The position numbers and the translations under genes are program-made. This document shows, piece after piece, positions 1 through 19,347 of a stretch of DNA of 43,152 nt. The notes under the pieces are model-generated. The model was not told the origin of the DNA, did not search any database, and saw only the letters and a list, made by a program, of their open reading frames with translations. Every line of letters starts with the position of its first letter. The stretch's first letter is position 1. This DNA is from a virus. The stretch covers positions 1-43,152 of IMG/VR virus record IMGVR_UViG_3300032298_000245, one strand, 5' to 3'.

Positions 1-804
1 AGGGGGAACTATGCGACGTTGAATCCCCTTCTTCTTGGTGGCACAAATGTTGTTCTTTCTAATGGCAACTTAGATGAACAGGAAACTACAGCCGCCTATC
101 GAACTACCAGTGGAACTATTTATGTTTCAACTGGTAAGTGGTATGCAGAGATGTTGGTCATTTCAGGGCCTTATGGACAGTTTGGCATTGTGAGGCAAGG
201 TGCTTTCACACCCAGTACTCGGTTTGGCTTGGGAACTGGGCAATCAGGTGCATACTGCTATGGTGCGTATGAGGGGGGCAAGTACAACAACGGATCGTCT
301 ACTTCATATGGATCTACATATGGAAATAACGATGTTATTGGATGTGTTTTAGATTTAGATGCTGGTACTGTTTCTTTTAGCAAGAATGGTATTTCACAAG
401 GAACTGCATTTACCTCTCTTCCCGCTGGTTTATACACTTTTGCAGTTGGTCACGGAAATGCCTCCTGTTCAGTTAACTTCGGCCAACGCCCGTTTGCCTA
501 CCCAGCCCCAAGCGGCTTCAAGGCGTTGTGTGATACCAACCTGCCAACAGGATCCATCACCACCAGCGGCAGCTTCACGGGTAATGCCAATGCTAATGGC
601 CCCTTTGTCTACCTGAACGGTGTTCCCACTGCTATGACCATCAACAGCAACCCGGTCACCTTCGCCACCCACGTCGATAAGTTGGCCAATGGTTTCAAAT
701 TGCGTTCAAGCAGTAGCAGTTTTAACACCGCCGGAACCAATACCTATTCCATTACGACAACTGGAGCTACATTCAAAGTAGCCCGTGCCCAAGCCAACCC
801 CTAA
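1..804 (+). CDS. SPRY-domain virion/fibre protein (5' partial)
   Basis: The frame is open from the first base of the window, so the N-terminus lies outside it. The first residues read RGNYATLNPL, a phrase I associate with phage SPRY-domain structural proteins, which argues against the internal TTG at 19 being the start. The middle part, around the sequence GCVLDLDAGTVSFSKNG, has the SPRY/B30.2 signature (a beta-sandwich fold used for ligand binding). The C-terminal third is Ser/Thr/Gly/Asn-rich, as in fibre tips. The next gene resembles a tail-fibre assembly protein, and the collagen-like fibre gene at the far end of the window would precede this one in a permuted map. A receptor-binding or fibre accessory role is inferred. 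Confidence 0.75.
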   Translation, partial: RGNYATLNPLLLGGTNVVLSNGNLDEQETTAAYRTTSGTIYVSTGKWYAEMLVISGPYGQFGIVRQGAFTPSTRFGLGTGQSGAYCYGAYEGGKYNNGSSTSYGSTYGNNDVIGCVLDLDAGTVSFSKNGISQGTAFTSLPAGLYTFAVGHGNASCSVNFGQRPFAYPAPSGFKALCDTNLPTGSITTSGSFTGNANANGPFVYLNGVPTAMTINSNPVTFATHVDKLANGFKLRSSSSSFNTAGTNTYSITTTGATFKVARAQANP

Positions 805-808
805 TACT

Positions 809-1342
809 ATGGCTACCTATCAACTTCCAAATGGCACGACGGTAAGCGACTCAATGTCGTTTACTTACGATGACATTCAATACCCTGAAAACTGGGTCCG
901 CCTCAGCACAGAAGAGGACCGCGAGCGTATTGGCCTTACTGGACCACTGCCAGAGCCCCCTTGGTATGACCAACAGTTCTACTGGGGGCCAGATTCACCC
1001 AAGGATCACGCTGGATTGGTGGAGATGTATTGCGGCTTTGTCAAACTGAATGCCAATGCAATCCTCCGTGAAACTGACTGGTATATCACTCGCGCCTCTG
1101 AGACCGGCATAGAAGCCCCTCAGAGCGTGCTTGATCGTCGATCTGAAGTACGAGTCCTAAGTAACCAAAAGGAGGCCTTCCTGAGGGCCACAGAGTCCAC
1201 TCAGGAGCTTGCTGCTTACGCCACCAGTCTTGAATATTGCCGGTGGGAAGCTACGCCAGAGCCCGTCGAGACCATCGAAGCTCCTGTCGTTATTGAACCT
1301 CCTCAATCTAGCTGGCCGGTTAACTCAGCTAACGGCATCTAA
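809..1342 (+). CDS. Putative tail-fibre assembly protein (gp38-like)
   Basis: A 177-residue soluble protein. The segment LRETDWYITRASETG, followed by a charged helix (about residues 85-145), resembles the helical C-terminal part of phage tail-fibre assembly chaperones, where a tryptophan/tyrosine motif ending in T-R-x-x-E is common. I use ATG 809, five bases after the upstream stop; a GTG at 785 would add eight residues but overlaps the SPRY gene. The tail end is rich in Pro, Glu and Val. Position directly after a fibre protein supports a chaperone role in fibre trimerisation or attachment. The assignment rests on motif resemblance only. Confidence 0.55.
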   Translation: MATYQLPNGTTVSDSMSFTYDDIQYPENWVRLSTEEDRERIGLTGPLPEPPWYDQQFYWGPDSPKDHAGLVEMYCGFVKLNANAILRETDWYITRASETGIEAPQSVLDRRSEVRVLSNQKEAFLRATESTQELAAYATSLEYCRWEATPEPVETIEAPVVIEPPQSSWPVNSANGI

Positions 1343-1382
1343 ACTTTCAAACCTTTAATAACTCTTACCCTTATTAAACATC

Positions 1383-1586
1383 ATGCTTACCATCCTCGGT
1401 GCCAAGGTCTCGATTGAGACCGTTACCTTTTTTGTGCTGTTTCTTGCTTCTGAGTACCTCGGCACTAACCCCCGCCTTAAGTCCAACAGCCTTGTACAGG
1501 CATTCACTTCTGCTGTCAATTCCTTTAAGCTTTTCCGTAAGGAAGACGACCGGATTCGTCGCATCAAAGACTCCTTCAAGGGTTGA
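1383..1586 (+). CDS. Small membrane protein, candidate holin
   Basis: A 67-residue protein with one hydrophobic segment (about residues 10-28, including VTFFVLFLASEYLG) and a strongly basic C-terminus (FRKEDDRIRRIKDSFKG). Such small one-pass proteins with a charged tail next to a lysis enzyme are typical holin candidates. The gene lies directly upstream of, and nearly overlaps, the C39-like peptidase, which supports a lysis cassette. It has no specific family motif that I can name, so the holin role is inferred from size, topology and neighbours. Confidence 0.5.
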   Translation: MLTILGAKVSIETVTFFVLFLASEYLGTNPRLKSNSLVQAFTSAVNSFKLFRKEDDRIRRIKDSFKG

Positions 1587-1591
1587 AATCA

Positions 1592-2137
1592 ATGGTGCTG
1601 CTTCCGGTGAAGCAGTATTACCCTCAACTTGATAGCAAGACAGGTCACGGAGGTCGGATGTGCTTTAGCTCAACATGTGCTATGGCCGTCAAGTACCTCC
1701 GTCCTGATTCTTTAAAGGGGAGTAATGCTGATGATGATTACTTAAAGACCGTTCTAAAATACGGTGATACAACACAAGCCCACGCACAGATCAAGGCTTG
1801 TGCCCAATATGGGGTCTTTGCAACTTTCTATACCACCGGTAATAAGCAGTCGATTAACTCGGAACTCCAAAAAGGGTTTCCTGTAGCAACTGGAATCCTC
1901 CACCATGGGCCAGCTTCGGCACCCACTGGTGGGGGTCACTACATGCTCTGCATTGGTGATGAAGGTGCCAACGGCATCTTTCACGACCCATACGGGCAAC
2001 TAGACAATGCCAACGGTGGCTACGACAAGGTTGGTTCCGGTGGTATGTCTGTTAAGTACGGCTGGACTAACTGGCTAAAACGTTGGCAAGTTGAAGGTCC
2101 TAATAGTGGTTGGTTTATGACCTTCAGAAAACAATGA
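1592..2137 (+). CDS. C39-like cysteine peptidase, candidate endolysin
   Basis: A 181-residue papain-like peptidase of the C39 type. The candidate catalytic Cys is in GRMCFSSTCAMAVKYL (about residues 22-37), the His is in GGHYMLCIG, and the Asp is in FHDPYG shortly after it, in the order expected for a Cys-His-Asp triad. There is no signal peptide, so export through a holin would be needed if it cuts peptidoglycan peptides. I prefer ATG 1592; a TTG at 1583 overlaps the previous stop. It overlaps the next gene by ATGA at 2134-2137, which suggests translational coupling. Between a membrane protein and a membrane-anchored coiled coil, an endolysin role is the simplest reading. A structural or maturation peptidase is the alternative. 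Confidence 0.6.
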   Translation: MVLLPVKQYYPQLDSKTGHGGRMCFSSTCAMAVKYLRPDSLKGSNADDDYLKTVLKYGDTTQAHAQIKACAQYGVFATFYTTGNKQSINSELQKGFPVATGILHHGPASAPTGGGHYMLCIGDEGANGIFHDPYGQLDNANGGYDKVGSGGMSVKYGWTNWLKRWQVEGPNSGWFMTFRKQ

Positions 2138-2379
2138 TTGAAGCAATTCTTACTGGTGTTGTCTCACTAGTCATCGGTGCTAGTGGTGGCATGGCAGCCC
2201 TGAACTCACGTACCAGCAACAAGGTGGCTGAGTTGGACCGGCGTATTGACCAAATGGAACTACGTGTTGCTGAAAAGTATGTTCCACGTAATGAACTATC
2301 CAATGCACTCCAAAAGATGGAAGATCACATGATCCGCATTGAAAATAAACTTGATCAAATAGCACTTAGAAATGTCTAA
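2134..2379 (+). CDS. Membrane-anchored coiled-coil protein (spanin or holin-like)
   Basis: An 81-residue protein with an N-terminal transmembrane helix (residues 2-22, IEAILTGVVSLVIGASGG) and then heptad-like helices: KVAELDRRIDQMELRV, a break at YVPRNEL, then MEDHMIRIENKLDQIAL. ATG 2134 overlaps the peptidase stop. The architecture resembles an inner-membrane spanin or a small lysis accessory protein, and it sits where T7 places genes 17.5 to 18.5. No outer-membrane spanin lipoprotein was found beside it. Function is inferred from topology and position. Confidence 0.5.
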   Translation: MIEAILTGVVSLVIGASGGMAALNSRTSNKVAELDRRIDQMELRVAEKYVPRNELSNALQKMEDHMIRIENKLDQIALRNV

Positions 2380-2629
2380 CAAACCTAAGGCTACAGAAAA
2401 TATGTTTAATGAGTTGCACAATATTGTAACTCTAGAGCTACTTAATCGGATTAAATCCGGTGAAGCCTCTACTGCTGATCTTAAAGCAGCTTGTGATTGG
2501 CTACACAAGAACGATATTTCTGGGGTTGCATATGAAGGTAACCCCTTGGATAAGCTTACTTCCATTATGCCAAAAGTAGATCCAGAACTCGTACAACGTA
2601 GACTGTATGGCCCCAAAGTTATCGGCTGA
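2372..2629 (+). CDS. Terminase small subunit (T7 gp18-type DNA maturase A)
   Basis: An 85-residue helical protein just after the lysis genes and upstream of TerL, the T7 position of gene 18. The sequence runs from FNELHNIVTLELLNRIKSGE through ADLKAACDWLHKND to VDPELVQRRLYG, a pattern I associate with small terminase proteins of T7-like cyanophages. It would recognise concatemeric DNA and recruit TerL to the prohead portal. The start overlaps the preceding stop by eight bases and the gene overlaps the next by 23. The family match is by eye; length and location agree. Confidence 0.75.
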   Translation: MSNKPKATENMFNELHNIVTLELLNRIKSGEASTADLKAACDWLHKNDISGVAYEGNPLDKLTSIMPKVDPELVQRRLYGPKVIG

Positions 2630-2891
2630 TCCTGGTAAGTCTGCTGCTTATTATCGTAGCAATCCAGAGGCTAGAGCAGTAAAAAATGCTGCTCAACGTA
2701 AAAGAAACAAATCCAAGCTATCTATTCAATACCGCATTGACCTAAAGCGTGAACGACGCCAACGGGGTATTGATGGCAAAGGTGGGCCTGATATGAGCCA
2801 TGACTCTAAGGGTAACTTGGCCCCTGAAAGTCCAAAGAAGAATCGTGCCAGAAATGGTGCGGGTGATAACGCAAGGTTTCGTCGTCCATAG
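2607..2891 (+). CDS. Small basic HNH-like / DNA-binding protein
   Basis: A 94-residue, very basic protein. The C-terminal half contains GPDMSH followed about 16 residues later by PKKNRARNGAG. This has the layout of the phage HNH-like family in which a D-x-D/S-H motif is followed by N-x-x-N-L and K-N-R-S segments, but the central Asn-Leu part is poor, so catalysis is uncertain. It overlaps the TerS gene by 23 bases, which suggests co-translation with the packaging genes. It could be a nuclease helper in packaging or a plain DNA-binding protein. Confidence 0.5.
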   Translation: MAPKLSADPGKSAAYYRSNPEARAVKNAAQRKRNKSKLSIQYRIDLKRERRQRGIDGKGGPDMSHDSKGNLAPESPKKNRARNGAGDNARFRRP

Positions 2892-2895
2892 CTGA

Positions 2896-3222
2896 ATGAC
2901 ACCCCTCTTCCCAACGCCTGATCATTATCTCCACAACCTAATAACGATGACAAGCTCTGAAGCCAAAAGACTACATCGTCGTGCAATTAAAGAACATTTC
3001 AATTGTCAATGTGTTTATTGTGGAATACAACATAACCTCGATCAACTAACTATCGATCATGTGCGGCCTCGCTCCAATGGAGGTCCATCCCTTGCAAGCA
3101 ATCTCGTGCCTTCTTGTAGGGCATGTAATCAGGCAAAAGGAAGTAATAACTGGCTCTCTTGGATGAGAGACACCTTTGGTGTTACCCAAAGGGAACAACT
3201 CATTTTATCTCATATTAATTAA
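2896..3222 (+). CDS. HNH endonuclease
   Basis: A 108-residue protein with a clear zinc-type HNH fold: CVYCG, then LTIDHVRPRSNGG (catalytic His), then NLVPSCRACNQAKGS (second Cys pair and Asn). This is the McrA-like HNH layout with two CxxC knuckles. ATG 2947 (protein beginning MTSSEAKRL) is an alternative start that keeps the whole domain. HNH nucleases next to terminase genes assist DNA packaging in several phages; free-standing homing endonucleases have the same fold. The position inside the terminase cluster favours the packaging role. Confidence 0.8.
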   Translation: MTPLFPTPDHYLHNLITMTSSEAKRLHRRAIKEHFNCQCVYCGIQHNLDQLTIDHVRPRSNGGPSLASNLVPSCRACNQAKGSNNWLSWMRDTFGVTQREQLILSHIN

Positions 3223-3224
3223 TT

Positions 3225-4292
3225 ATGGCCGCTCCTAAAAAACCAGGAAACCCTTGGAACCAATTTCCCAAGAAGAAAGCCCCTGGCAAACTGTCTACAC
3301 GTACCCCTAAGCCTACTGTTACCCCTAGCCGCGCAGTTGGTGCTGGTGGCCCTCCTGCAGCCCCTCCTGGGCGTGGCGGCACTGGTGGTGGTAGCCGACG
3401 TGGTGGTGCCATTGTTAAAGCTTCAGGCAATGGTGCTAATACCTCAACACGGGTTAACCCTGTCAACGTTCGTGATGTTACTGGCCAACCCCGTGGCCAA
3501 GTCGCTGGATCTTCCAATAAAGGTTCGTTAGGTACTCCTAAGTCTCCAGCCAAACTTCCTGGTGGCTTACCTAAGCCTGCACTTCCTAAGGGTGCTGCGT
3601 CAACTGCTGGCAATGTTGCTAAGACTACAGGCAAAGGTTTGCTGGCTAAAGCTGCAGTCCCGGTTGATATTGCACTCACGGCCAATTCTATCTTTAACCC
3701 CAACAGCGAAGGCAATCAACAGCTGTCTAAGGCAGCTGCTGCAGTTAATAAGCGATTCTCCAGTAACTACGGTCCTCGATTTCAGAACCCTAATACCGGC
3801 GCTGTTTCCTCTAAAGGTGCCAAGCCTTCGGCACCCATGCCTAAGGGTTCAGGTGATGCACTACGCGAAAAGTCTTATGCTTCCCTCCAAAAGTTCCAAG
3901 TTCCAGCCGATAAGGTTCCTACAACTTCTAAGTCACCTTCTGTAGCCAGAATTTCTTCTAGCACTGCACAACCTGCTCGTTCTTCTGGCAGCACTGCAAT
4001 GCGTCCTCCTGTCCGTTCCTCTTCTACTAAGCCTGCCGCCTCCCAGCCAGGACAGTCAAAGGATATGAATGAGAACTACAGGATCTGGGCCGCCGCTCAC
4101 AAAGACTTGGCATCCAAAGTCAAGAAAGGACAAGCCGGTTACAACGCTATTGCGAAAGAAGCTGTCTCTGGTGTAGGCCCAGTGCGTGACTCTGCTTCCT
4201 ACAAGCCTAGTGTTTCCAGCTCTGATACTGCCAGCATAGATAAGAAGGATTCACTCAAGATTGCATCCCTCGACAAGAAAAAGAAGAAGTAA
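3225..4292 (+). CDS. Large basic disordered protein of unknown function
   Basis: 355 residues, very rich in Pro, Ser, Lys, Gly, Ala and Thr, with no convincing globular core except short helical patches (about residues 145-175, and 280-325 around NYRIWAAAHKDLASKVKKG). It starts MAAPKKPGNPW and ends in a run of lysines. The ATG lies two bases after the HNH stop and the stop abuts the next start, so it is part of the packaging operon. Composition suggests binding to nucleic acid or an acidic partner. I do not recognise the family. Confidence 0.65.
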   Translation: MAAPKKPGNPWNQFPKKKAPGKLSTRTPKPTVTPSRAVGAGGPPAAPPGRGGTGGGSRRGGAIVKASGNGANTSTRVNPVNVRDVTGQPRGQVAGSSNKGSLGTPKSPAKLPGGLPKPALPKGAASTAGNVAKTTGKGLLAKAAVPVDIALTANSIFNPNSEGNQQLSKAAAAVNKRFSSNYGPRFQNPNTGAVSSKGAKPSAPMPKGSGDALREKSYASLQKFQVPADKVPTTSKSPSVARISSSTAQPARSSGSTAMRPPVRSSSTKPAASQPGQSKDMNENYRIWAAAHKDLASKVKKGQAGYNAIAKEAVSGVGPVRDSASYKPSVSSSDTASIDKKDSLKIASLDKKKKK

Positions 4293-4838
4293 ATGGCTAA
4301 GGTAACTTCATCCAATACACGCAGTACACGTAAGACAACCCAACCAGTGCGCCAAGGACAAGATCCTTACCGTGCTAACCGTCAAGCTGTCTCTAAGGCT
4401 ACTGTCTCCAAAAGTGGCGAAGGCGTCACACCTGGCTCTGCAAAGGTAACCACCGGTCAAGGTAAGCAACGGGTAACCCTCCCCAACCTTCCTAAGCCCA
4501 CTACTGGTACTACCAACACCATTCGTGCCACTGGCGGTAACAGCACAGACGCCAAGATCAACCGTCTGTCTGCCCAGACTGCCCCAATCAGTGGTAACAG
4601 CCCGATTGCCCGTCAACCCAAGCCCAAGCCTAAGGCTGCTGCCAACTTGGCGAAGTCCCAACAGATGCTCCGTAATCAAATGGGACCCATTGCATCAGCT
4701 TTGGGTGGTGTTAAAAGCCTTGGTCTTCAGGCTATTGCTGAATCCGTGGCTCCTCGGCCTACGGCTAACCAAGATGTGGCTTATAACCAAAAGAAAGCTG
4801 CTGACGTTCTTAAAGTAAAGAAGAAGCGTACAGCGTAA
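4293..4838 (+). CDS. Basic disordered protein of unknown function
   Basis: 181 residues, Thr/Ser/Lys/Gln/Pro-rich and strongly basic. Most of the chain looks disordered; a helix-prone segment near residues 115-150 (AANLAKSQQMLRNQMGP and what follows) is the only likely folded part. It begins on the base after the stop of the 355-residue protein and shares its composition, so the two may be related or act together. It is followed by an intrinsic terminator and then TerL. No function is assigned. Confidence 0.6.
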   Translation: MAKVTSSNTRSTRKTTQPVRQGQDPYRANRQAVSKATVSKSGEGVTPGSAKVTTGQGKQRVTLPNLPKPTTGTTNTIRATGGNSTDAKINRLSAQTAPISGNSPIARQPKPKPKAAANLAKSQQMLRNQMGPIASALGGVKSLGLQAIAESVAPRPTANQDVAYNQKKAADVLKVKKKRTA

Positions 4839-4850
4839 TCACCTCTTATT

Positions 4851-4890
4851 GACCCCTAGAAGCCTCTGCAAGGTGCCTCTGGGGGTCTTT
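4851..4890 (+). terminator. Intrinsic terminator upstream of TerL
   Basis: GACCCC (4851-4856) pairs with GGGGTC (4882-4887), with further weaker pairs inside (AGA/TCT), followed by a T-rich run TTTCTATATATT. It lies in the 71-base gap between the basic protein and TerL. Confidence 0.6.
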
Positions 4891-4909
4891 CTATATATTC
4901 CCTTTATCT

Positions 4910-6679
4910 ATGCCCTCAAAGCGTGCTACAGCGGCTCCTGAGAAGAGTACGTTAGATCTATTAAGGGAAGACTTCAAAGTCTTTCTTCAGGCCCTTTGGA
5001 ATCAGCTTGAGTTGCCCTCTCCAACAAGAGCACAATACTCCATTGCTGACTACCTCCAACACGGTCCTAAGCGTTTACAGATCCAAGCCTTTCGGGGTGT
5101 AGGTAAATCCTGGATTACCGGTGCCTTTGTGTTGTGGACTCTTTTCAATAACAAAGAAAAGAAGATCATGATTATCTCAGCTTCTAAGGAACGGGCTGAC
5201 AACATGTCCATCTTCCTTCAGAAGCTCCTGATTGAGACACCGTGGCTAGCCCACATGAGACCAAAAGATGACGCTTCTCGGTGGTCACGGATCTCCTTTG
5301 ACATCAATTGCCCACCTCACCAGGCACCATCCGTTAAATCGGTCGGTATTACCGGTCAGCTAACCGGTTCACGTGCTGACCTCATGATTCTCGATGACAT
5401 CGAGGTCCCTGGTAACTCCATGACCGAGATGATGCGTGAAAAGCTCCTTCAGTTATGCACAGAAGCTGAGTCTATCCTCACACCAAAGGCTGACTCAAGG
5501 ATTATGTACCTTGGGACACCCCAGACTACCTTTACCATCTACAACAAGCTTGCAGAGCGCAACTACCGCCCCTTTGTTTGGCCCTCACGCTACCCCCGTG
5601 ACCTAGCCAACTACAAGGGACTGCTTGCTCCCCAGCTTCAAGAAGACATTGAGAGTGGTGCTGAGAAGTGGCAGGTCACAGATCCTGATCGTTTCTCTGA
5701 TGATGACCTCCTAGAACGGGAGGCTGCCATGGGGCGGTCCAACTTCATGCTTCAGTTCATGCTGGATACCAGCCTGAGTGACGCTGAGAAGTTTCCCCTT
5801 AAGTTCCAAGACCTCATCATTACCGCAGTTAACCCAACCCAGGCTCCTGACTCTGTGGTGTGGTGCTCAGATCCAAGGAATGTCCTTAAGGAACTGCCTA
5901 CCGTGGGCCTACCCGGTGACTACTTCTACTCACCAATGCAACTCCAAGGTGAGTGGACCCCCTACACGGAGACCATTTGCTCCATTGACCCAAGTGGACG
6001 CGGTACCGACGAAACAGCAGCCACCTACATCAGTCAAAAGAATGGGTTTCTCTACGTTCACGAGATACGAGCTTATCGCGACGGTTATAGCGACAATACA
6101 CTTCTTGACATCCTTCGTGGGTGTAAGCGTTACAACGTCACGAAGCTCCTCATCGAAACCAACTTCGGTGATGGAATCATTGCAGAGCTGTTCAAAAAGC
6201 ACCTCCAGCAAACCAAGCAAGCCATAGACGTAGAAGAAGTCCGTGCCAACGTCCGTAAAGAGGACCGCATCATTGACTCCCTAGAGCCTGTCATGAACCA
6301 ACACCGGCTCATCATTGATCGTGGCCTGGTGGAGTGGGACTACAACTCCAACAAAGACGCCCCACCAGAAGAACGCATCCTTTACATGCTGTTTTACCAG
6401 ATGTCTCGGATGTGCCGGGAGAAAGGTGCCGTCAAACATGACGACAGATTGGACTCCCTAGCCCAAGGCGTCAAGTACTTCACAGATGCCCTGTCGATCT
6501 CAGCCCATGAGACCGTCAAACTACGGAAGCAGGAAGACTGGCAAGACATGCTGGACTCCTGGCTAGATGACCCCCAGTCAGCTGCTAATCACATGGTCTT
6601 TGGTATGGACCTCTCACAGCGTCAAAAGGCTCGTGGATTGGCTGGTAAAGGCGGTACACCCCTCTGGAAAAGACTGTAG
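4910..6679 (+). CDS. Terminase large subunit (T7 gp19-type)
   Basis: 589 residues, the usual length for T7-like TerL. The N-terminal ATPase has Walker A FRGVGKS (residues 61-67) and Walker B LMILDDIE (about 158-165). The C-terminal RNase H-like nuclease shows CSIDPSGRGTDE (about 356-368), a central acidic segment around LIETNFGDG, and HDDRLDSLAQG near residue 510. The protein pumps concatemeric DNA into proheads through the portal and cuts it. The start follows a terminator by about 20 bases, so it may have its own promoter or depend on leaky termination. Confidence 0.95.
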   Translation: MPSKRATAAPEKSTLDLLREDFKVFLQALWNQLELPSPTRAQYSIADYLQHGPKRLQIQAFRGVGKSWITGAFVLWTLFNNKEKKIMIISASKERADNMSIFLQKLLIETPWLAHMRPKDDASRWSRISFDINCPPHQAPSVKSVGITGQLTGSRADLMILDDIEVPGNSMTEMMREKLLQLCTEAESILTPKADSRIMYLGTPQTTFTIYNKLAERNYRPFVWPSRYPRDLANYKGLLAPQLQEDIESGAEKWQVTDPDRFSDDDLLEREAAMGRSNFMLQFMLDTSLSDAEKFPLKFQDLIITAVNPTQAPDSVVWCSDPRNVLKELPTVGLPGDYFYSPMQLQGEWTPYTETICSIDPSGRGTDETAATYISQKNGFLYVHEIRAYRDGYSDNTLLDILRGCKRYNVTKLLIETNFGDGIIAELFKKHLQQTKQAIDVEEVRANVRKEDRIIDSLEPVMNQHRLIIDRGLVEWDYNSNKDAPPEERILYMLFYQMSRMCREKGAVKHDDRLDSLAQGVKYFTDALSISAHETVKLRKQEDWQDMLDSWLDDPQSAANHMVFGMDLSQRQKARGLAGKGGTPLWKRL

Positions 6680-6911
6680 AGGTTACTCGCAAGCTCGCTG
6701 TCATACCAACGGGTTTGAACAACAGGGACGTATACAGGGGAAGGAAGGGCCAAAGGGGGGAAGACGCTCTCATTGACTGGCGTCAATAAGACCAATCTTC
6801 CCCTTTACTGATGTCCTAAGCGAAGCGTGTGAAGGGACATCTCTTAAAGACACACTTCCCACTCCTTCTTACTAACAGGATTCAACCCAGTACTGGATCC
6901 TGTGAAACCCG
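6680..6911 (+). other. Intergenic region with 21-nt repeat and strong hairpins
   Basis: 232 bases without a convincing gene between TerL and the next ORF. Positions 6719-6739 are identical to 13196-13216 inside the RNA polymerase gene. A nested hairpin follows: GGGGAAGA (6757-6764) with TCTTCCCC (6796-6803), enclosing ATTGAC/GTCAAT (6772-6777/6782-6787). A third perfect stem is GATGTCC/GGACATC (6810-6816/6835-6841). The region may terminate TerL transcription, be processed, or lie close to the genome end. Confidence 0.5.
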
Positions 6912-7298
6912 ATGGAACCGCCAAGGCCAACACGGAGCGAAGCGGAGTCTGAACCATCTAATTACTACTTATCCTACTGTATGGAGTACAAGTACGAAGG
7001 TAATACTAATGATACCTACATTAGTTATTTCCGTAACAGAGAAGGCCCCAATGGTATCCTAGTCTATTACAAGAATGTAAGCAGATTTGTTACCACCAGT
7101 AAAGGACTACGTGATGTCTTTGGACCTGCACGGTACACAGACAGTGTTAAGTCGGCATCGAAATGGTGTGATGAGATGATTGAGAAGTATGACTCAGTAG
7201 CAGCTGAGGTTACCCATTATCAGATTGTTAAGGATGGGTTCGGTCCTGAAGCACACGGTGATGAAGACCCAACAGCTAAGACGAGGATGGTTGTCTGA
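6912..7298 (+). CDS. Hypothetical protein
   Basis: 128 residues; family not recognised. After a charged, Pro/Glu-rich start, a compact domain seems to begin near residue 19 (YYLSYCMEYKYEG) and has alternating aromatic and charged strands, then helices including SAKW-like and CDEMIEKYDSVAAEV segments. ATG 6981 inside it is an alternative start. Its stop overlaps the next ATG (TGATG), so the two genes are coupled. They form the end of the late operon, downstream of TerL, where T7 carries genes 19.2 to 19.5. Confidence 0.6.
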   Translation: MEPPRPTRSEAESEPSNYYLSYCMEYKYEGNTNDTYISYFRNREGPNGILVYYKNVSRFVTTSKGLRDVFGPARYTDSVKSASKWCDEMIEKYDSVAAEVTHYQIVKDGFGPEAHGDEDPTAKTRMVV

Positions 7299-7573
7299 TG
7301 GAACCCTTAAAGCTAAATATCTCTAAAGACCTGTATAAAAGTATCAATACTAAGATCCCTTGGTTGGATCACCTTCTCTTAGGCCTCCTGAAGGGCATAG
7401 AAGAGTGGTATATTGATCAGAAGGTAGTATCTGCCGTTGATGCGGCTATCGCTGAGTATGAGGCTCAGGAGGTTGTCTCAGAGAGCGCTCCTATTTACAG
7501 TGAAACAGAGGATGGGGAGATGAGATTGACTGCTCCTTGGTATATCCCTGAGAAAAATGACAAAAATGTCTGA
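7298..7573 (+). CDS. Hypothetical acidic protein
   Basis: 91 residues; family not recognised. It begins with MEPLKLNISKDLYKS, has an amphipathic helical middle (LDHLLLGLLKGIEEWYIDQK) and an acidic tail. The start overlaps the previous stop by one base. It is the last gene before a gene-free region of about 650 bases and a strong hairpin at 7598-7631, so it probably closes the late transcript. Confidence 0.6.
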   Translation: MEPLKLNISKDLYKSINTKIPWLDHLLLGLLKGIEEWYIDQKVVSAVDAAIAEYEAQEVVSESAPIYSETEDGEMRLTAPWYIPEKNDKNV

Positions 7574-7597
7574 AACCCCTTATCGTATGCTCAAGGA

Positions 7598-7631
7598 CCC
7601 ACGTTACCCCCAGTAGGGGTTACTTAGTGGG
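7598..7631 (+). terminator. Hairpin ending the late operon
   Basis: ACCCC (7606-7610) pairs with GGGGT (7616-7620) around a CAGTA loop, inside an outer CCCAC/GTGGG stem (7598-7602/7627-7631). The downstream T-run is poor (TGTATTTAGG), so it may be a weak terminator or an RNA-processing hairpin. Confidence 0.45.
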
Positions 7632-7817
7632 TGTATTTAGGTGTCTTATTGGTTACTTAGGCCGCGCTAGTTGTACAGTCTGACCGTGCCAGCTGGGCTG
7701 ATGCAGGCTGCAGCGCCGCCACCCTGGTCTCAGTTGTTACTGCTATTGAGAATCACTCTCTTGTTATCTGTCTGGCCTTCGTATTGTTTGCATATATAGA
7801 TCGCGCGCGGTTCCTTT

Positions 7818-8110
7818 CACTTGCCCACGACCGGGCAAATGTAACGGTTGCTAACAGAGCGATGCGCTTCGCTGTCACCTGCCCACTAGAGGATGTATAG
7901 TTGCTGCATGAGCGAAGGGGGGCCACGGGTCACCCACGCTTCAGACCTAGGCTTAGGCCCAGGCTCTGGAACATAGAAAACCGAATAAAGCAGTCAAGAC
8001 CTAGGGTCAAGGCCGCCACACTGTTAGCTAGGCATGAGCACGGATGCTCCATGAGACCAAAGCTTGTGTGGGCTAGGGCAAACTTTAGGTTCTATCTTAC
8101 TTGCCCACTA
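7818..8110 (+). repeat. Three dispersed copies of YACYTGCCCACKA
   Basis: CACTTGCCCACGA at 7818, CACCTGCCCACTA at 7876 and TACTTGCCCACTA at 8098, all in the same orientation in non-coding DNA. The CCCACTA core with downstream purines (AGAGGAT, AAACAAGGA) loosely recalls the CTCACTATAGGGAGA half of T7 promoters. They could be phage-polymerase promoters or binding sites at an origin or genome end. Confidence 0.4.
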
Positions 8111-8134
8111 AACAAGGACGCACCACAATCAAAC

Positions 8135-8184
8135 GGTAGGCATCACTTATAGCGCGATGCTTGGGTTCAAAACCCTTGCCTACC
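8135..8184 (+). other. tRNA-like structured element (not a complete tRNA)
   Basis: GGTAGGC (8135-8141) pairs perfectly with GCCTACC (8178-8184) like an acceptor stem. Directly before the 3' strand is a T-arm-like stem-loop, GGGTTCAAAACCC. GCATC/GATGC (8140-8144/8156-8160) can form another stem but competes with the end of the acceptor. The element spans only 50 bases, too short for a tRNA, with no D-arm or identifiable anticodon arm. A terminator follows at 8188. It may be a tRNA relic, an RNA decoy or a stable 3' end. Confidence 0.4.
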
Positions 8185-8187
8185 TAT

Positions 8188-8214
8188 TGCTTCCTAATGA
8201 GGGAAGCATTCTTT
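8188..8214 (+). terminator. Intrinsic terminator before the first early gene
   Basis: A perfect 7-bp stem, TGCTTCC (8188-8194) with GGAAGCA (8202-8208), is followed by TTCTTT. It lies only a few bases before the ATG at 8220, so it would end or attenuate a short RNA carrying the tRNA-like element. Confidence 0.65.
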
Positions 8215-8219
8215 AAACC

Positions 8220-8474
8220 ATGGCCACGCTTTACATTCCTGAGACTGTAAGCCTACGGTTTACATTGTCCGAAGAATGCCCCATTGAAGAATATTTAATG
8301 GATGGCATCGTTAATGAATTCTTCCCACAAGATGACGGCACTAGTCAAGTAATTATTAAGGACGTAGATTTAGCGTTACTTGATAATCTAAACCCTGATG
8401 AGTTATGCGAGTTTTTAGGTATTGATACAGAGTTTGTGATAGCTGCAGAATGTTTCGATTCTATCCCTGCTTAA
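8220..8474 (+). CDS. Hypothetical acidic early protein
   Basis: 84 residues, strongly acidic, with a C-terminal motif LNPDELCEFLGIDTEFVIAA. Family not recognised. It is the first gene after the gene-free region, and its ATG is six bases after a terminator T-run with no good Shine-Dalgarno sequence. Acidic early proteins of T7-like phages often bind and inhibit host proteins (T7 Ocr is the classic case), but nothing specific links this one to that role. Confidence 0.55.
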   Translation: MATLYIPETVSLRFTLSEECPIEEYLMDGIVNEFFPQDDGTSQVIIKDVDLALLDNLNPDELCEFLGIDTEFVIAAECFDSIPA

Positions 8475-8479
8475 CACAA

Positions 8480-8497
8480 TTCACAATCACCAAGGAG
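8480..8497 (+). promoter_or_regulatory. Repeated translation leader, copy 1
   Basis: TTCACAATCACC followed by AAGGAG, seven bases before ATG 8505. It is a variant of the leader TTCACAATCACCACAAGGAC found before other early genes; the purine part is a good Shine-Dalgarno sequence. Confidence 0.6.
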
Positions 8498-8504
8498 TCA
8501 ACCA

Positions 8505-8819
8505 ATGGCTAAGCCTAAGTTAACTGTTAATGCCAAGCCTAGAGTTAAAGCTCAGGCAAAACATAAGGGGTTTGTAATCGACAAAGGATTAAGTCCTATT
8601 GATAACAAACCCTACGTTGCCATTGCTACAGTTAATTGCTCTAATCGCAAAACTGGCAATATGGTCCAGGTTTGGATCATGCGGGATGATGTTAACCCAG
8701 TGGTAGCAATTGCTACGGGTGACGATGTCAGCATTTGTGGCACCTGTCCACATAGAAAGAATGCTAAGGGTGAAAGGTCTTGCTACGTTAACGTTGGCCA
8801 GGCTCCGAATATTGTCTAG
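8505..8819 (+). CDS. N-terminal part of an amber-interrupted 251-codon protein
   Basis: 104 codons before an in-frame TAG (8817-8819). The same frame stays open for another 147 codons to 9260, and the combined product reads as one protein of a conserved phage family. This part holds VNCSNRKTGNMVQVWIMRDD, an ICGTCPH cysteine motif and RSCYVNVGQAPN; the next residues after the stop are KTYKRGGYS. In relatives as I recall them, this junction reads like APNxxWKxYKRG, so the amber probably replaces an aromatic codon (TGG or TAT). It has leader copy 1 and a good Shine-Dalgarno sequence. Function unknown; the cysteine motifs suggest metal binding. Confidence 0.6.
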   Translation: MAKPKLTVNAKPRVKAQAKHKGFVIDKGLSPIDNKPYVAIATVNCSNRKTGNMVQVWIMRDDVNPVVAIATGDDVSICGTCPHRKNAKGERSCYVNVGQAPNIV

Positions 8820-8951
8820 AAAACATATAAGCGGGGCGGTTATTCTACAGACCACAGCTACAACGACCTAGCAGCTATTTTTAAGGGACGTAAGATTCGC
8901 TGGGGAGCATATGGTGACCCTGCGATTATTGATCCCGGTGTTGTTATTACC

Positions 8952-9260
8952 TTGAATAAGTATGCAGCTGGGCATACTGGCTACACTCACATGTGGTCTT
9001 TAGATCATGCTCAAGAATTCAAGGGTTTGTATCAAGCAAGCTGCGATTCTCTCAAGGATTATATCGAAGCCTCAAGTATGGGCTGGAAAACATTTCAAGT
9101 GACTAGCAAGAATGCTACGTTAAAGAATGCTATCTTGTGCCCTGCTACTCGAGAGAATAGTAAGACCCAATGCATAACTTGCACCCTATGTGATGGCAAC
9201 ACTAAGGACGTGTATGTGCAAGCTCATGGATCTGGGGCAAAGTATGTAGCCTATGCCTAA
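8952..9260 (+). CDS. C-terminal part of the amber-interrupted protein
   Basis: A TTG-initiated frame of 102 codons. The same frame is open from 8820, immediately after the TAG, and encodes RGGYSTDHSYNDLAAIFKG and GAYGDPAIIDP before this point. The rest includes AAGHTGYTHMWSLDH, ILCPATRE, a CITCTLCDG double CxxC and AHGSGAKYV. There is no Shine-Dalgarno sequence at the TTG, so independent translation is doubtful. It is better read as the distal two fifths of the gene starting at 8505, expressed only by readthrough or lost by mutation. Codon use and conserved-looking motifs suggest recent interruption. A terminator follows at 9275. Confidence 0.5.
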   Translation: MNKYAAGHTGYTHMWSLDHAQEFKGLYQASCDSLKDYIEASSMGWKTFQVTSKNATLKNAILCPATRENSKTQCITCTLCDGNTKDVYVQAHGSGAKYVAYA

Positions 9261-9274
9261 CTTATACACTAAGC

Positions 9275-9310
9275 AAGGATCATCGCCTTTGATGGTCCTT
9301 CTCTTTTTTA
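9275..9310 (+). terminator. Intrinsic terminator
   Basis: A 10-bp stem with one G-T pair, AAGGATCATC (9275-9284) with GATGGTCCTT (9291-9300), loop GCCTTT, then CTCTTTTTTA. A translation leader begins only 13 bases after the stem. Confidence 0.8.
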
Positions 9311-9313
9311 TCT

Positions 9314-9333
9314 TTCACAATCACCACAAGGAC
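9314..9333 (+). promoter_or_regulatory. Repeated translation leader, copy 2
   Basis: TTCACAATCACCACAAGGAC, with AAGGAC as Shine-Dalgarno sequence 11-12 bases before ATG 9345. It differs from copy 3 (10059-10078) at one base. Confidence 0.65.
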
Positions 9334-9344
9334 GCACCCATTGC

Positions 9345-9461
9345 ATGAAACTCAACGCCATCATTTTAACAGCTAGCCTATCCCTTTTTGTCTTGGGATT
9401 CTTCATCTCACCAAGTGCTAGCCAAGTTAATTCGTCAACGTGTTCAACTCAAGTTAACTAA
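9345..9461 (+). CDS. 38-residue peptide with signal sequence
   Basis: A short gene: a positively charged start (MKLN), a hydrophobic core (AIILTASLSLFVLGFFIS) and a small-residue cleavage region (PSAS, then QVNSS). After cleavage only a dozen residues would remain, so the product is either a tiny secreted peptide or a small membrane protein. Support for coding comes from leader copy 2 and its Shine-Dalgarno sequence, and from the textbook n-h-c signal layout. The stop is 10 bases before the next ATG. Possible roles are envelope modification or superinfection exclusion; this is inference. Confidence 0.55.
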   Translation: MKLNAIILTASLSLFVLGFFISPSASQVNSSTCSTQVN

Positions 9462-9471
9462 GGACTCAATC

Positions 9472-9642
9472 ATGCCCGCTAAAAAGTTTGGTTTTGTTAA
9501 ACCTGTCAGGCTAACAATTACGCTGCCCAATCGTGTCTTCTCTATTTTAGAGGAGCAAAGCTACATTCAAGGACGCAGTATGTCTAACCTGGCTGCTGTA
9601 ACCATTGAGAAAACATTGCTGAGGGATTATGTCAAAGCTTGA
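9472..9642 (+). CDS. Small ribbon-helix-helix DNA-binding protein
   Basis: 56 residues. The beta strand VRLTITLPNRVFSILEEQSY followed by helices IQGRSMSNLAAVTIEK matches a CopG/Arc-type ribbon-helix-helix fold, which binds DNA as a dimer through the paired strands. ATG 9472 is preceded by AAGGAC at good spacing; in-frame codons upstream overlap the signal peptide gene and look non-coding. As an early gene it may repress early transcription or bind host operators. The target is not visible. Confidence 0.65.
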   Translation: MPAKKFGFVKPVRLTITLPNRVFSILEEQSYIQGRSMSNLAAVTIEKTLLRDYVKA

Positions 9643-9784
9643 TTCCTACTTCTGGAAACTACTTGATGCCTATCTTGAGGATTACTTTGTAGACCATGAA
9701 AACACTAACGAAGGACTTACTGAGGATGAGATCGAAGATCTTATGAACAATCCTAATTGGACTGGTTCGAGGTGTCACTACTGA
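9629..9784 (+). CDS. Hypothetical 51-residue acidic protein
   Basis: It starts with ATG 9629, overlapping the RHH gene by 14 bases, and reads MSKLDSYFWKLLDAYLEDYF, then an acidic stretch (GLTEDEIEDLMNNP) and a short tail ending CHY. GAGGG precedes the start by three bases. Its stop overlaps the next start (TGATG). Family not recognised; a helical, acidic, host-directed early protein is plausible. Confidence 0.5.
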   Translation: MSKLDSYFWKLLDAYLEDYFVDHENTNEGLTEDEIEDLMNNPNWTGSRCHY

Positions 9785-10008
9785 TGAGCTTCAACGCAAA
9801 CACTATTTACAAGGCCGTGGATGTAGACCAATTGGCTAAAGAATGTAAGGACGCTATCACTCAGGATGATGTCTATGTTATTGTTGACAGTATGTTTGGC
9901 GAAGTTCATAGTATCTACCGATCTCATGCGAAAGCCATTACTGAATGCATAAAATTAGGTAATTTAGATCCTGATTACTGGACTATTGAAAAGCATGTGG
10001 TGCATTAA
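9784..10008 (+). CDS. Hypothetical 74-residue protein
   Basis: It begins at ATG 9784, overlapping the upstream stop by one base; a longer version from 9757 would overlap coding sequence. The sequence MSFNANTIYKAVDVDQLAKE, then DDVYVIVDSMFGEVHSIYRS and a helix (AKAITECIKLG), looks like a small alpha-beta protein. Family not recognised. It ends just before an intrinsic terminator. Confidence 0.55.
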   Translation: MSFNANTIYKAVDVDQLAKECKDAITQDDVYVIVDSMFGEVHSIYRSHAKAITECIKLGNLDPDYWTIEKHVVH

Positions 10009-10017
10009 CACTTACCT

Positions 10018-10046
10018 GGGTTGCGGTAATACGTAGCCCTTTTTTA
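10018..10046 (+). terminator. Intrinsic terminator
   Basis: GGGTTGCG (10018-10025) pairs with CGTAGCCC (10032-10039), eight pairs including two G-T, loop GTAATA, then seven T bases in the tract TTTTTTA. Leader copy 3 starts 20 bases after the stem. Confidence 0.75.
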
Positions 10047-10058
10047 TTGCCCAACCCA

Positions 10059-10078
10059 TTCACGATCACCACAAGGAC
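10059..10078 (+). promoter_or_regulatory. Repeated translation leader, copy 3
   Basis: TTCACGATCACCACAAGGAC before ATG 10085. It repeats the terminator-leader-small gene arrangement seen at 9275-9345. Confidence 0.65.
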
Positions 10079-10084
10079 TTACTC

Positions 10085-10246
10085 ATGCTGACAACTTTTG
10101 AGGCCCAGTTCTTGACCGCTGACAATCAAACAAGGACCTGGTTGATCCGTTCACAAACCTATGCTCAAGCGATTCTGGCTGCTAAGGGCTTGTCTGACTT
10201 AGAGGACGGCACGTTAATTCGCGTTTTTAAAGAGTTTGTATGGTAA
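10085..10246 (+). CDS. Hypothetical 53-residue protein
   Basis: It starts MLTTFEAQFLTADNQTRTWL and continues through a helix (YAQAILAAKGLSDLEDG) to end FKEFVW. The layout of a strand, a helix starting near 25 and a final strand suggests a compact alpha-beta protein. Leader copy 3 supplies a Shine-Dalgarno sequence. The stop overlaps the next ATG at 10246. Family not recognised. Confidence 0.55.
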   Translation: MLTTFEAQFLTADNQTRTWLIRSQTYAQAILAAKGLSDLEDGTLIRVFKEFVW

Positions 10247-10545
10247 TGGCTAAGAAGTATTTCCCTAATAACTGGCAAGAGTACAAGGACGAGCCCGACG
10301 ATTCATTCATTCCACATACATTCCAAGAGTTAATGGAGTGGAAAGTAAGCGAATGGGAGTTGCCTCCCAGCATTTACTGCATCCTGCGGTGCATGAATCT
10401 TAAGACTGGCAAGGTCAAGGAACACGTCTACCAAAGCCAAGGACAGGCCTTTCGCAAGCTTGAACTGATGGCAAAAGATCCCGACATGGAGGTCACCATG
10501 TGTACTAACGAATTCATTGGCAAAACCGTCTCAACCCATGATTAA
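10246..10545 (+). CDS. Hypothetical 99-residue protein
   Basis: I start it at ATG 10246, coupled to the previous stop; ATG 10240 would add two residues. It begins MAKKYFPNNWQEYKDEPDD and carries FQELMEWKVSEWELPPSIYC, then a region resembling the strand-helix pattern of the 53-residue neighbour (YQSQGQAFRKLELMAKDPD). That similarity suggests both share a small fold in which a helix follows the word AQA or QAF, but I do not recognise a named family. Confidence 0.6.
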   Translation: MAKKYFPNNWQEYKDEPDDSFIPHTFQELMEWKVSEWELPPSIYCILRCMNLKTGKVKEHVYQSQGQAFRKLELMAKDPDMEVTMCTNEFIGKTVSTHD

Positions 10546-12233: not shown

Positions 12234-12274
12234 GCGGATGTGGCGGAATTGGTAGACGCGCTAGTTTCAGGTAC
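12234..12274 (+). other. Candidate attP: 5' half of a tRNA-Leu gene
   Basis: Starting at GCGGATGTGGCGGAATTGG this reads as the 5' acceptor strand, D-arm and anticodon arm of a bacterial tRNA-Leu (anticodon CAG in the loop TTCAGGT). After 12274 the match breaks by an inserted GC, and no T-arm or 3' acceptor strand follows, so it is not a functional tRNA. P-SSP7 is known to carry a 42-bp piece of its host's tRNA-Leu gene directly after int; this is the same arrangement and about the same length. Confidence 0.75.
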
Positions 12275-17419: not shown

Positions 17420-17594
17420 TCTTCCAGGCTATACCACTGTGATGTACGAGCAGCCTGATGGAACATTCCTGACAGCTATTAGTCCTGAACCGCCAACAGC
17501 TGAGGCAATTGCTAAGGCTCAACCCTTTAGGGCTGACATTTTGAACAAGATGGAAGCAATCATTAAAAATCCTTCGTATCAGATTACTGGATGA
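17388..17594 (+). CDS. Hypothetical 68-residue protein
   Basis: The sequence MKNSTQLKTSDLPGYTTVMY, then QPDGTFLTAISPEPPTAEAI and a helix, is a small soluble protein. It overlaps the helicase by 32 bases and the exonuclease by four (ATGA). Family not recognised; its place between helicase and polymerase suggests a replication-linked role. Confidence 0.55.
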   Translation: MKNSTQLKTSDLPGYTTVMYEQPDGTFLTAISPEPPTAEAIAKAQPFRADILNKMEAIIKNPSYQITG

Positions 17595-18118
17595 ACCTAA
17601 TCTTTGACTTAGAAACAGACGGTCTTTACGATGATGTTACCTGTATCCACTGTATCTGCATCCATGACCTTGATGCTAAACAAACCCTTGTCTTTAATGA
17701 TACGGGTAGTGAGCAGCCTGTGGTTAAGGGTATCCAAATGCTTGAAGATGCCAGCCATTTAATTGGCCATAATATCATCTCTTACGACATACCTGTAGTT
17801 CGCAAACTATTTCCCTGGTTCAATACAGACGCTACTCTTTTAGACACCTTAGTCCTGTCACGCATCTATCACGCTGACAGAACTAATGAAGACTACGAGA
17901 ACAGGAAGCCTAAATGGAAGCACATGCCCCTTCAGTTAATTGGCAGACATTCTCTTGAATCCTATGGCTACCGCCTAGGTGAATACAAGGGTTCCTTTGG
18001 TAAGACTGCCGATTGGAAAGAATGGAGTCAAGAGATGGAGGACTACATGGTGCAAGACGTAAACGTAACCAGGAAACTATGGAATTATTTCCAACCATAC
18101 CTGACTGGGTCTCTCTAG
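17591..18118 (+). CDS. 3'-5' exonuclease domain of split DNA polymerase
   Basis: 175 residues matching the proofreading domain of T7 gp5. DxE is seen in IFDLETDG (residues 4-11), ExoII in LIGHNIISYDIP, LDTLVLSRIYHAD as in T7 (IDTLVLSRLIHS), and ExoIII-like YMVQDVNVT near the end. The frame ends at TAG 18116, where T7-like enzymes would continue into the polymerase domain. The polymerase motifs resume in another frame that overlaps by 40 bases. Removing one CT from TCTCTCT (18110-18116) would fuse the two frames as T-G-S-L-E-H-H. Confidence 0.9.
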   Translation: MNLIFDLETDGLYDDVTCIHCICIHDLDAKQTLVFNDTGSEQPVVKGIQMLEDASHLIGHNIISYDIPVVRKLFPWFNTDATLLDTLVLSRIYHADRTNEDYENRKPKWKHMPLQLIGRHSLESYGYRLGEYKGSFGKTADWKEWSQEMEDYMVQDVNVTRKLWNYFQPYLTGSL

Positions 18119-19347
18119 AGCACCATGTCGCACAGATCCTTACTGACCAAGAAATCTATGGATGGAGCTTTGATGAAAGAGCTGCATGGGAACTTGAATC
18201 AACTCTCCGACGAGAGCTTGAAACACTTACTCAATTACTTCGCGGAAGGCATCCTTACGTTGCAGGGCCATCGTTCAATCCAAAAAGATCTAACAAGACA
18301 CAGGGGTACTTCACAGGATGTGAGTCAACAAGGCTGAAGGAATTAAACCCTTCATCACGTGATCACATTGCCTGGATCTTTCAAACCTTCTATGACTGGA
18401 CACCCACTGAATTCACAGATAAGGGCAAAGCATCAATTGACGAAACAGTCCTCAAGGAAATTGGAACCCCAATTGCCCTTCAGTTCTTCAGGGTACTTGA
18501 ACTCACGAAACAGCTTGGACTCCTCAGTGAGGGTGTTAATGCCTGGCTCAAACTCGTACGCGATGGTCGGATCCACCACAACTGTAGTGTCGCCACTGCC
18601 ACACATAGATGTGCCCACCGTAAGCCCAACCTTGCCCAGGTTCCCGCAGAAGAAGATTTCCGCAAACTATTCAGAGCAACGCCTGGCTTACAGATGGTCG
18701 GCGCTGATCTTGCTGGGATTGAGCTTCGTATGTTGGCTCATTATCTGGCACGTTTTGACGGGGGTCGGTACGCCGACATCCTCCTCAACGACGACATCCA
18801 CCAAGTTAATGCAGACAAGATTGGCATTTCCCGTAGGGCCGTAAAGACTGTTACTTATGCATTCCTTTATGGAGCTGGGGATGAAAAGATTGGGTTATCC
18901 TTCGATCCCTTGCTTCCCAAGAACAAGGCAAGAAAAAGGGGTAAGGAGATTCGTCAAGCATTTATGGATGCTATCGACGGTCTGGAGACCCTAGTAACCA
19001 AAGTAAAAGAGAAAGCTGCTGGTGGGTACATCAATGCTATTGATGGTCGGAAGATCAGCGTAGATGGTACACACAAGGCTCTCAATTACTTGCTGCAGTC
19101 CAGTGCTGGTGTTATTGCCAAACGCTGGATGGTAACGGCCCACGATACTATCCAGGCTACAAATATTAATGCACGACAATTAGCCTTCGTGCATGACGAA
19201 CTTCAATTTGAAACTAAACCTGAGTATGTAGATGACCTTAAGCTTGCACTTACCTTTTCAGCAGTACACGCTGGAGAGTATTACAACTGCCGATTGCCCA
19301 TCGAAGCAGAAGCAACAGTCGGAAAGTCCTGGGCTGAAACTCACTGA
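18079..19347 (+). CDS. DNA polymerase I-family polymerase domain (T7 gp5-type, split)
   Basis: 422 residues from ATG 18079. NPSSRDHI, TDKGKASIDETVL and NLAQVP match T7 gp5. Motif A is GADLAGIELRML (near 207), motif B RRAVKTVTYAFLYGAG (near 252, with the Tyr that allows ddNTP use), motif C FVHDELQFE (near 369). The thumb insert that binds thioredoxin in T7 is about 40 residues shorter here, so processivity may work differently. With the upstream frame the total is near 590 residues, the size of an intact cyanopodovirus polymerase. Either two subunits are made, or the split is a tract-length mutation. Confidence 0.9.
   Translation: MELFPTIPDWVSLEHHVAQILTDQEIYGWSFDERAAWELESTLRRELETLTQLLRGRHPYVAGPSFNPKRSNKTQGYFTGCESTRLKELNPSSRDHIAWIFQTFYDWTPTEFTDKGKASIDETVLKEIGTPIALQFFRVLELTKQLGLLSEGVNAWLKLVRDGRIHHNCSVATATHRCAHRKPNLAQVPAEEDFRKLFRATPGLQMVGADLAGIELRMLAHYLARFDGGRYADILLNDDIHQVNADKIGISRRAVKTVTYAFLYGAGDEKIGLSFDPLLPKNKARKRGKEIRQAFMDAIDGLETLVTKVKEKAAGGYINAIDGRKISVDGTHKALNYLLQSSAGVIAKRWMVTAHDTIQATNINARQLAFVHDELQFETKPEYVDDLKLALTFSAVHAGEYYNCRLPIEAEATVGKSWAETH

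Follow-up and report, generated by a model that had tools for sequence, protein, structure and literature searches.

Whether an in-frame amber codon within a phage gene reflects a nonsense mutation, a codon that is still translated, the end of a shortened product, or an error in the record is the question raised by a locus in the viral contig IMGVR_UViG_3300032298_000245, which we analysed over its whole length of 43,152 nucleotides (hereafter, the window). On the evidence presented below, we consider it most probable (about 0.85) that the stop is a recently arisen nonsense allele of an accessory gene that this T7-like cyanophage can dispense with. The RNA polymerase of the window (70% to S-B28 and S-CBP1) and its integrase (59% to S-CBP1) place this phage with T7-like Synechococcus phages, and its host is presumably a picocyanobacterium. 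A 39-bp match to the 5' half of a tRNA-Leu-like sequence (positions 12234-12272), located 3' of the integrase gene, is the likely attP. Elsewhere in the window, the exonuclease and polymerase domains of DNA polymerase are found in separate ORFs (17591-18118 and 18013-19347), the same arrangement being present in the related contig L003 described below; in Synechococcus phage DSL-LC07, an annotated DnaQ-like exonuclease adjoins the DNA polymerase.

A single gene interrupted by an amber codon

The frame in question lies on the plus strand and runs from ATG 8505 to TAA 9258-9260, with TAG as its codon 105 (8817-8819). A Shine-Dalgarno-like AAGGAG (8492-8497, plus strand) is present 7 nt 5' of the ATG. 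The codon separates a predicted truncated product of 104 aa (8505-8819) from a distal part of 146 codons (8820-9260). When searched alone, the proximal half matches phrog_2554 at profile positions 273-373 (E 2e-29) and the distal half at positions 386-519 (E 1e-34); because these positions are consecutive, the two halves represent one gene rather than two chance ORFs, which confirms the initial annotation in its description of one frame, 8505-9260, broken by TAG. Its statement that the distal part has no Shine-Dalgarno sequence also agrees with our observations, as none was evident at the restart candidates 3' of the TAG (TTG 8952 and ATG 8991).

The family corresponds to Pfam PF23872 (DUF7227), for which the intact copy of L003 scores 28.4 bits, above the cut-off of 27 bits, and the window frame read with X scores 24.9 bits, below it. 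In an alignment of 60 sequences, seven cysteines are invariant, three before the stop (C78, C81, and C93) and four after it (C212, C223, C226, and C229), and the window frame contains all of them; the predicted truncated product would have only the first three, and the distal part has the other four together with H241. Such conservation suggests metal or cluster binding. The fold predicted from the 60 sequences is one domain (mean pLDDT 89.7), in which a helix formed by residues 100-109 spans the stop. A fold search for a solved relative gave nothing significant (best E 0.086), and BFVD matches to gp88 and Gp37/Gp68-like proteins were not significant either; thus, no function is claimed for the DUF7227 protein.

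Origin and reality of the stop codon

The nearest relative having the gene is L003 (IMGVR_UViG_3300037189_001796, a phage contig of 41,193 bases), which aligns at 75-90% over a large part of the window's left half. Its gene is intact and codon 105 is TGG, one base apart from the window. We also examined this codon in 107 distinct homologues drawn from IMG/VR and GenBank phages: TGG occurs in 63, TAT in 17, TAC in 12, TTT in 10, ATG in 2, and TTC, CAC, and TTG in one each, corresponding to Trp in 63, Tyr in 29, Phe in 11, Met in 2, and His and Leu in one each. The residue is aromatic (W/Y/F) in 103 of the 107 and a stop in none, so relatives do not end at the same site, an outcome that the initial annotation had named as one that would refute it. 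Two-feature records that suggested splits of this gene in other phages turned out to be alignment overruns into a neighbouring or overlapping gene. A single change had been proposed to explain the stop, from either TGG or TAT, and L003 favours TGG: the nonsense allele would have arisen by one G-to-A change that turned TGG, at a site aromatic almost family-wide, into TAG. We infer this direction of change from the family and not from a dated tree.

The same TAG is present in a second IMG/VR record, IMGVR_UViG_3300033571_003355, which is 10365 bases long and exactly reverse-complementary to window positions 1-10365; no further contig with the TAG allele turned up when IMG/VR was scanned with a degenerate pattern. 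This second contig speaks against sequencing error, but its independence may be incomplete, since the two contigs have a common end at window position 1.

A dispensable gene in a variable slot

The gene lies between terL and the integrase/RNA polymerase genes, in a slot whose content varies. Among the 23 relatives whose loci include both terL and the integrase or RNA polymerase gene, it is present in 7 and absent from 16. A close relative, L207 (IMGVR_UViG_3300047308_000105, integrase 91%), keeps the flanking genes and lacks both the DUF7227 gene and the 84-aa ORF that precedes it in the same slot of the window (8220-8474, plus strand) and is also found in L003. At positions 2102-3071 of L207, three unrelated small ORFs, one of which matches phrog_554, stand in place of this cassette. 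Judged by this distribution, the DUF7227 gene is a dispensable accessory cassette, and with most relatives lacking it, plain loss would be unremarkable. The locus had been introduced as a conserved early gene, which is appropriate for the family, being widespread, but not for this phage group, in which the gene is accessory.

Upstream of the cassette, a tRNA-like branched RNA was observed at 8135-8208 (folding z-score -4.25), comprising an 8-bp stem, a small hairpin, and a T-arm-like GGGTTCAAAACCC; a terminator-like hairpin (8188-8208) comes next. Its sequence is identical in L003 and differs in L207, where four pairs are changed on both sides and 24 of 24 pairs are kept, a comparison of two distinct sequences only. 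The element has no Rfam match at gathering thresholds and no CCA. Its tRNA-like part (8135-8184) was considered as a suppressor tRNA because of its fold, but it has neither an ARAGORN call nor a CUA loop; it was also considered as attP and dropped, the match at 12234-12272 being likelier.

Selection and age of the stop

In comparison with L003, codons 1-104 show dN of 0.052 and dS of 0.29, and codons 106-251 encode an identical protein despite 17 synonymous differences (dS 0.21). The probability of observing 17 synonymous and no amino-acid changes is approximately 5e-12 if the differences arose neutrally, and neutral drift over the whole window branch predicts approximately 35 amino-acid changes in codons 106-251. 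It follows that the stop is young, or that recombination has covered its effects, or that the codon is still translated. Neutral time would be at most about 8% of the window branch, a bound that may fail if the distal part was renewed by recombination: the window and L003 agree at every base of a 209-bp tract 3' of the stop (8835-9043) whereas its flanks are diverged, a sign of recent recombination. The window residues at positions 27, 67, and 103 are unseen in 59 homologues, and L003 is unusual at none of these positions; such residues, few in number, give a weak hint of relaxed constraint. On balance, a very recent mutation, one of the explanations offered at the outset, is the best reading of a distal protein that has remained that of L003.

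Alternative explanations

An error at base 8818, in sequencing or assembly, appears very unlikely. It could be argued that the second TAG contig, identical over 10365 bases and with the same end, goes back to the same data or to closely related ones; however, the codon is found in two IMG/VR records, and other nearby positions also differ from L003 in a pattern resembling real divergence. That the phage keeps the 104-residue product on purpose, as a short form with a function of its own, seems barely conceivable. This product would retain the first cysteine group, and shorter family-like models of 97 and 168 aa are listed in BFVD, but one domain makes up the whole predicted fold, with the stop inside a helix, the four invariant cysteines of the distal part would be lost, and none of the homologues examined ends at codon 105.

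The conserved distal protein would also be expected if TAG were translated, either by an amber suppressor tRNA of the host or a helper or by readthrough, giving the full-length protein at a reduced level, and in-frame stops under purifying selection have been reported in bacterial genes, with mobile-element genes over-represented (PMC7918605). Several observations nevertheless make such translation highly unlikely. None of the 107 homologues carries a stop at codon 105, whereas a programmed readthrough site would be expected to be conserved among relatives; ARAGORN detected no tRNA gene in the window, which may lack parts of the phage genome, and the anticodon-like loop of the tRNA-like element is without CUA; no second in-frame stop was found among genes conserved between the window and L003; and TAG is used as a terminator by 5 of the 48 listed ORFs (TerL and four others), in agreement with the earlier remark that it is a normal stop elsewhere in the window. 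The L003 comparison and the use of TAG as terminator rule out genome-wide recoding. A search for the host in GTDB contigs, using homologues and a 21-mer of the tRNA-like element, found nothing. Amber suppression and readthrough, both suggested originally, are improbable and have no positive support from tRNA genes, other TAG codons, or stops in homologues. It is likewise highly improbable that the natural host translates UAG at a useful level, with selection on the gene continuing through this one suppressed codon.

Returning to the nonsense allele, its product is probably a 104-residue fragment that ends within a helix of the predicted fold; lacking the distal half of the domain and the second cysteine cluster, this fragment would be without function. 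The phage would tolerate this loss because the slot is variable and filled otherwise in most relatives, and intact alleles would persist in the recombining population. Nonsense alleles of dispensable phage genes are ordinary, and this one matters little by itself. It nevertheless provides a clean example of how comparing relatives can place an in-frame stop of a phage genome, and it is no case to be listed under recoding or readthrough. Were the codon found to be translated, that would document amber suppression in a picocyanobacterium.

Comparison with known systems

The window copy resembles other members of PF23872/phrog_2554 in having both halves in order and all seven cysteines, and differs from them in that its frame is broken at codon 105 and its Pfam score is under the cut-off. 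In the matches listed, the T7-like integrase-bearing cyanophages S-CBP1, P-SSP7, and S-TIP37 do not occur among the phages with a DUF7227 gene. TAG-recoded phages, such as crAss-like phages, use genetic code 15 (PMC9523058); they share with the window the presence of TAG within the frame of a phage gene, but the window has one such TAG instead of many, still uses TAG as a terminator rather than avoiding it, and has no suppressor tRNA of its own. A fitting parallel is given by in-frame stops in bacterial and mobile genes, which are short-lived and in which mobile elements are over-represented (Belinky et al. 2021, PMC7918605). The present case differs in comprising a single stop-bearing lineage, which gives no measure of persistence; it is like those stops in its single nonsense change, its open and conserved distal frame, its location in a mobile-element gene, and the occurrence of the TAG in identical sequence only.
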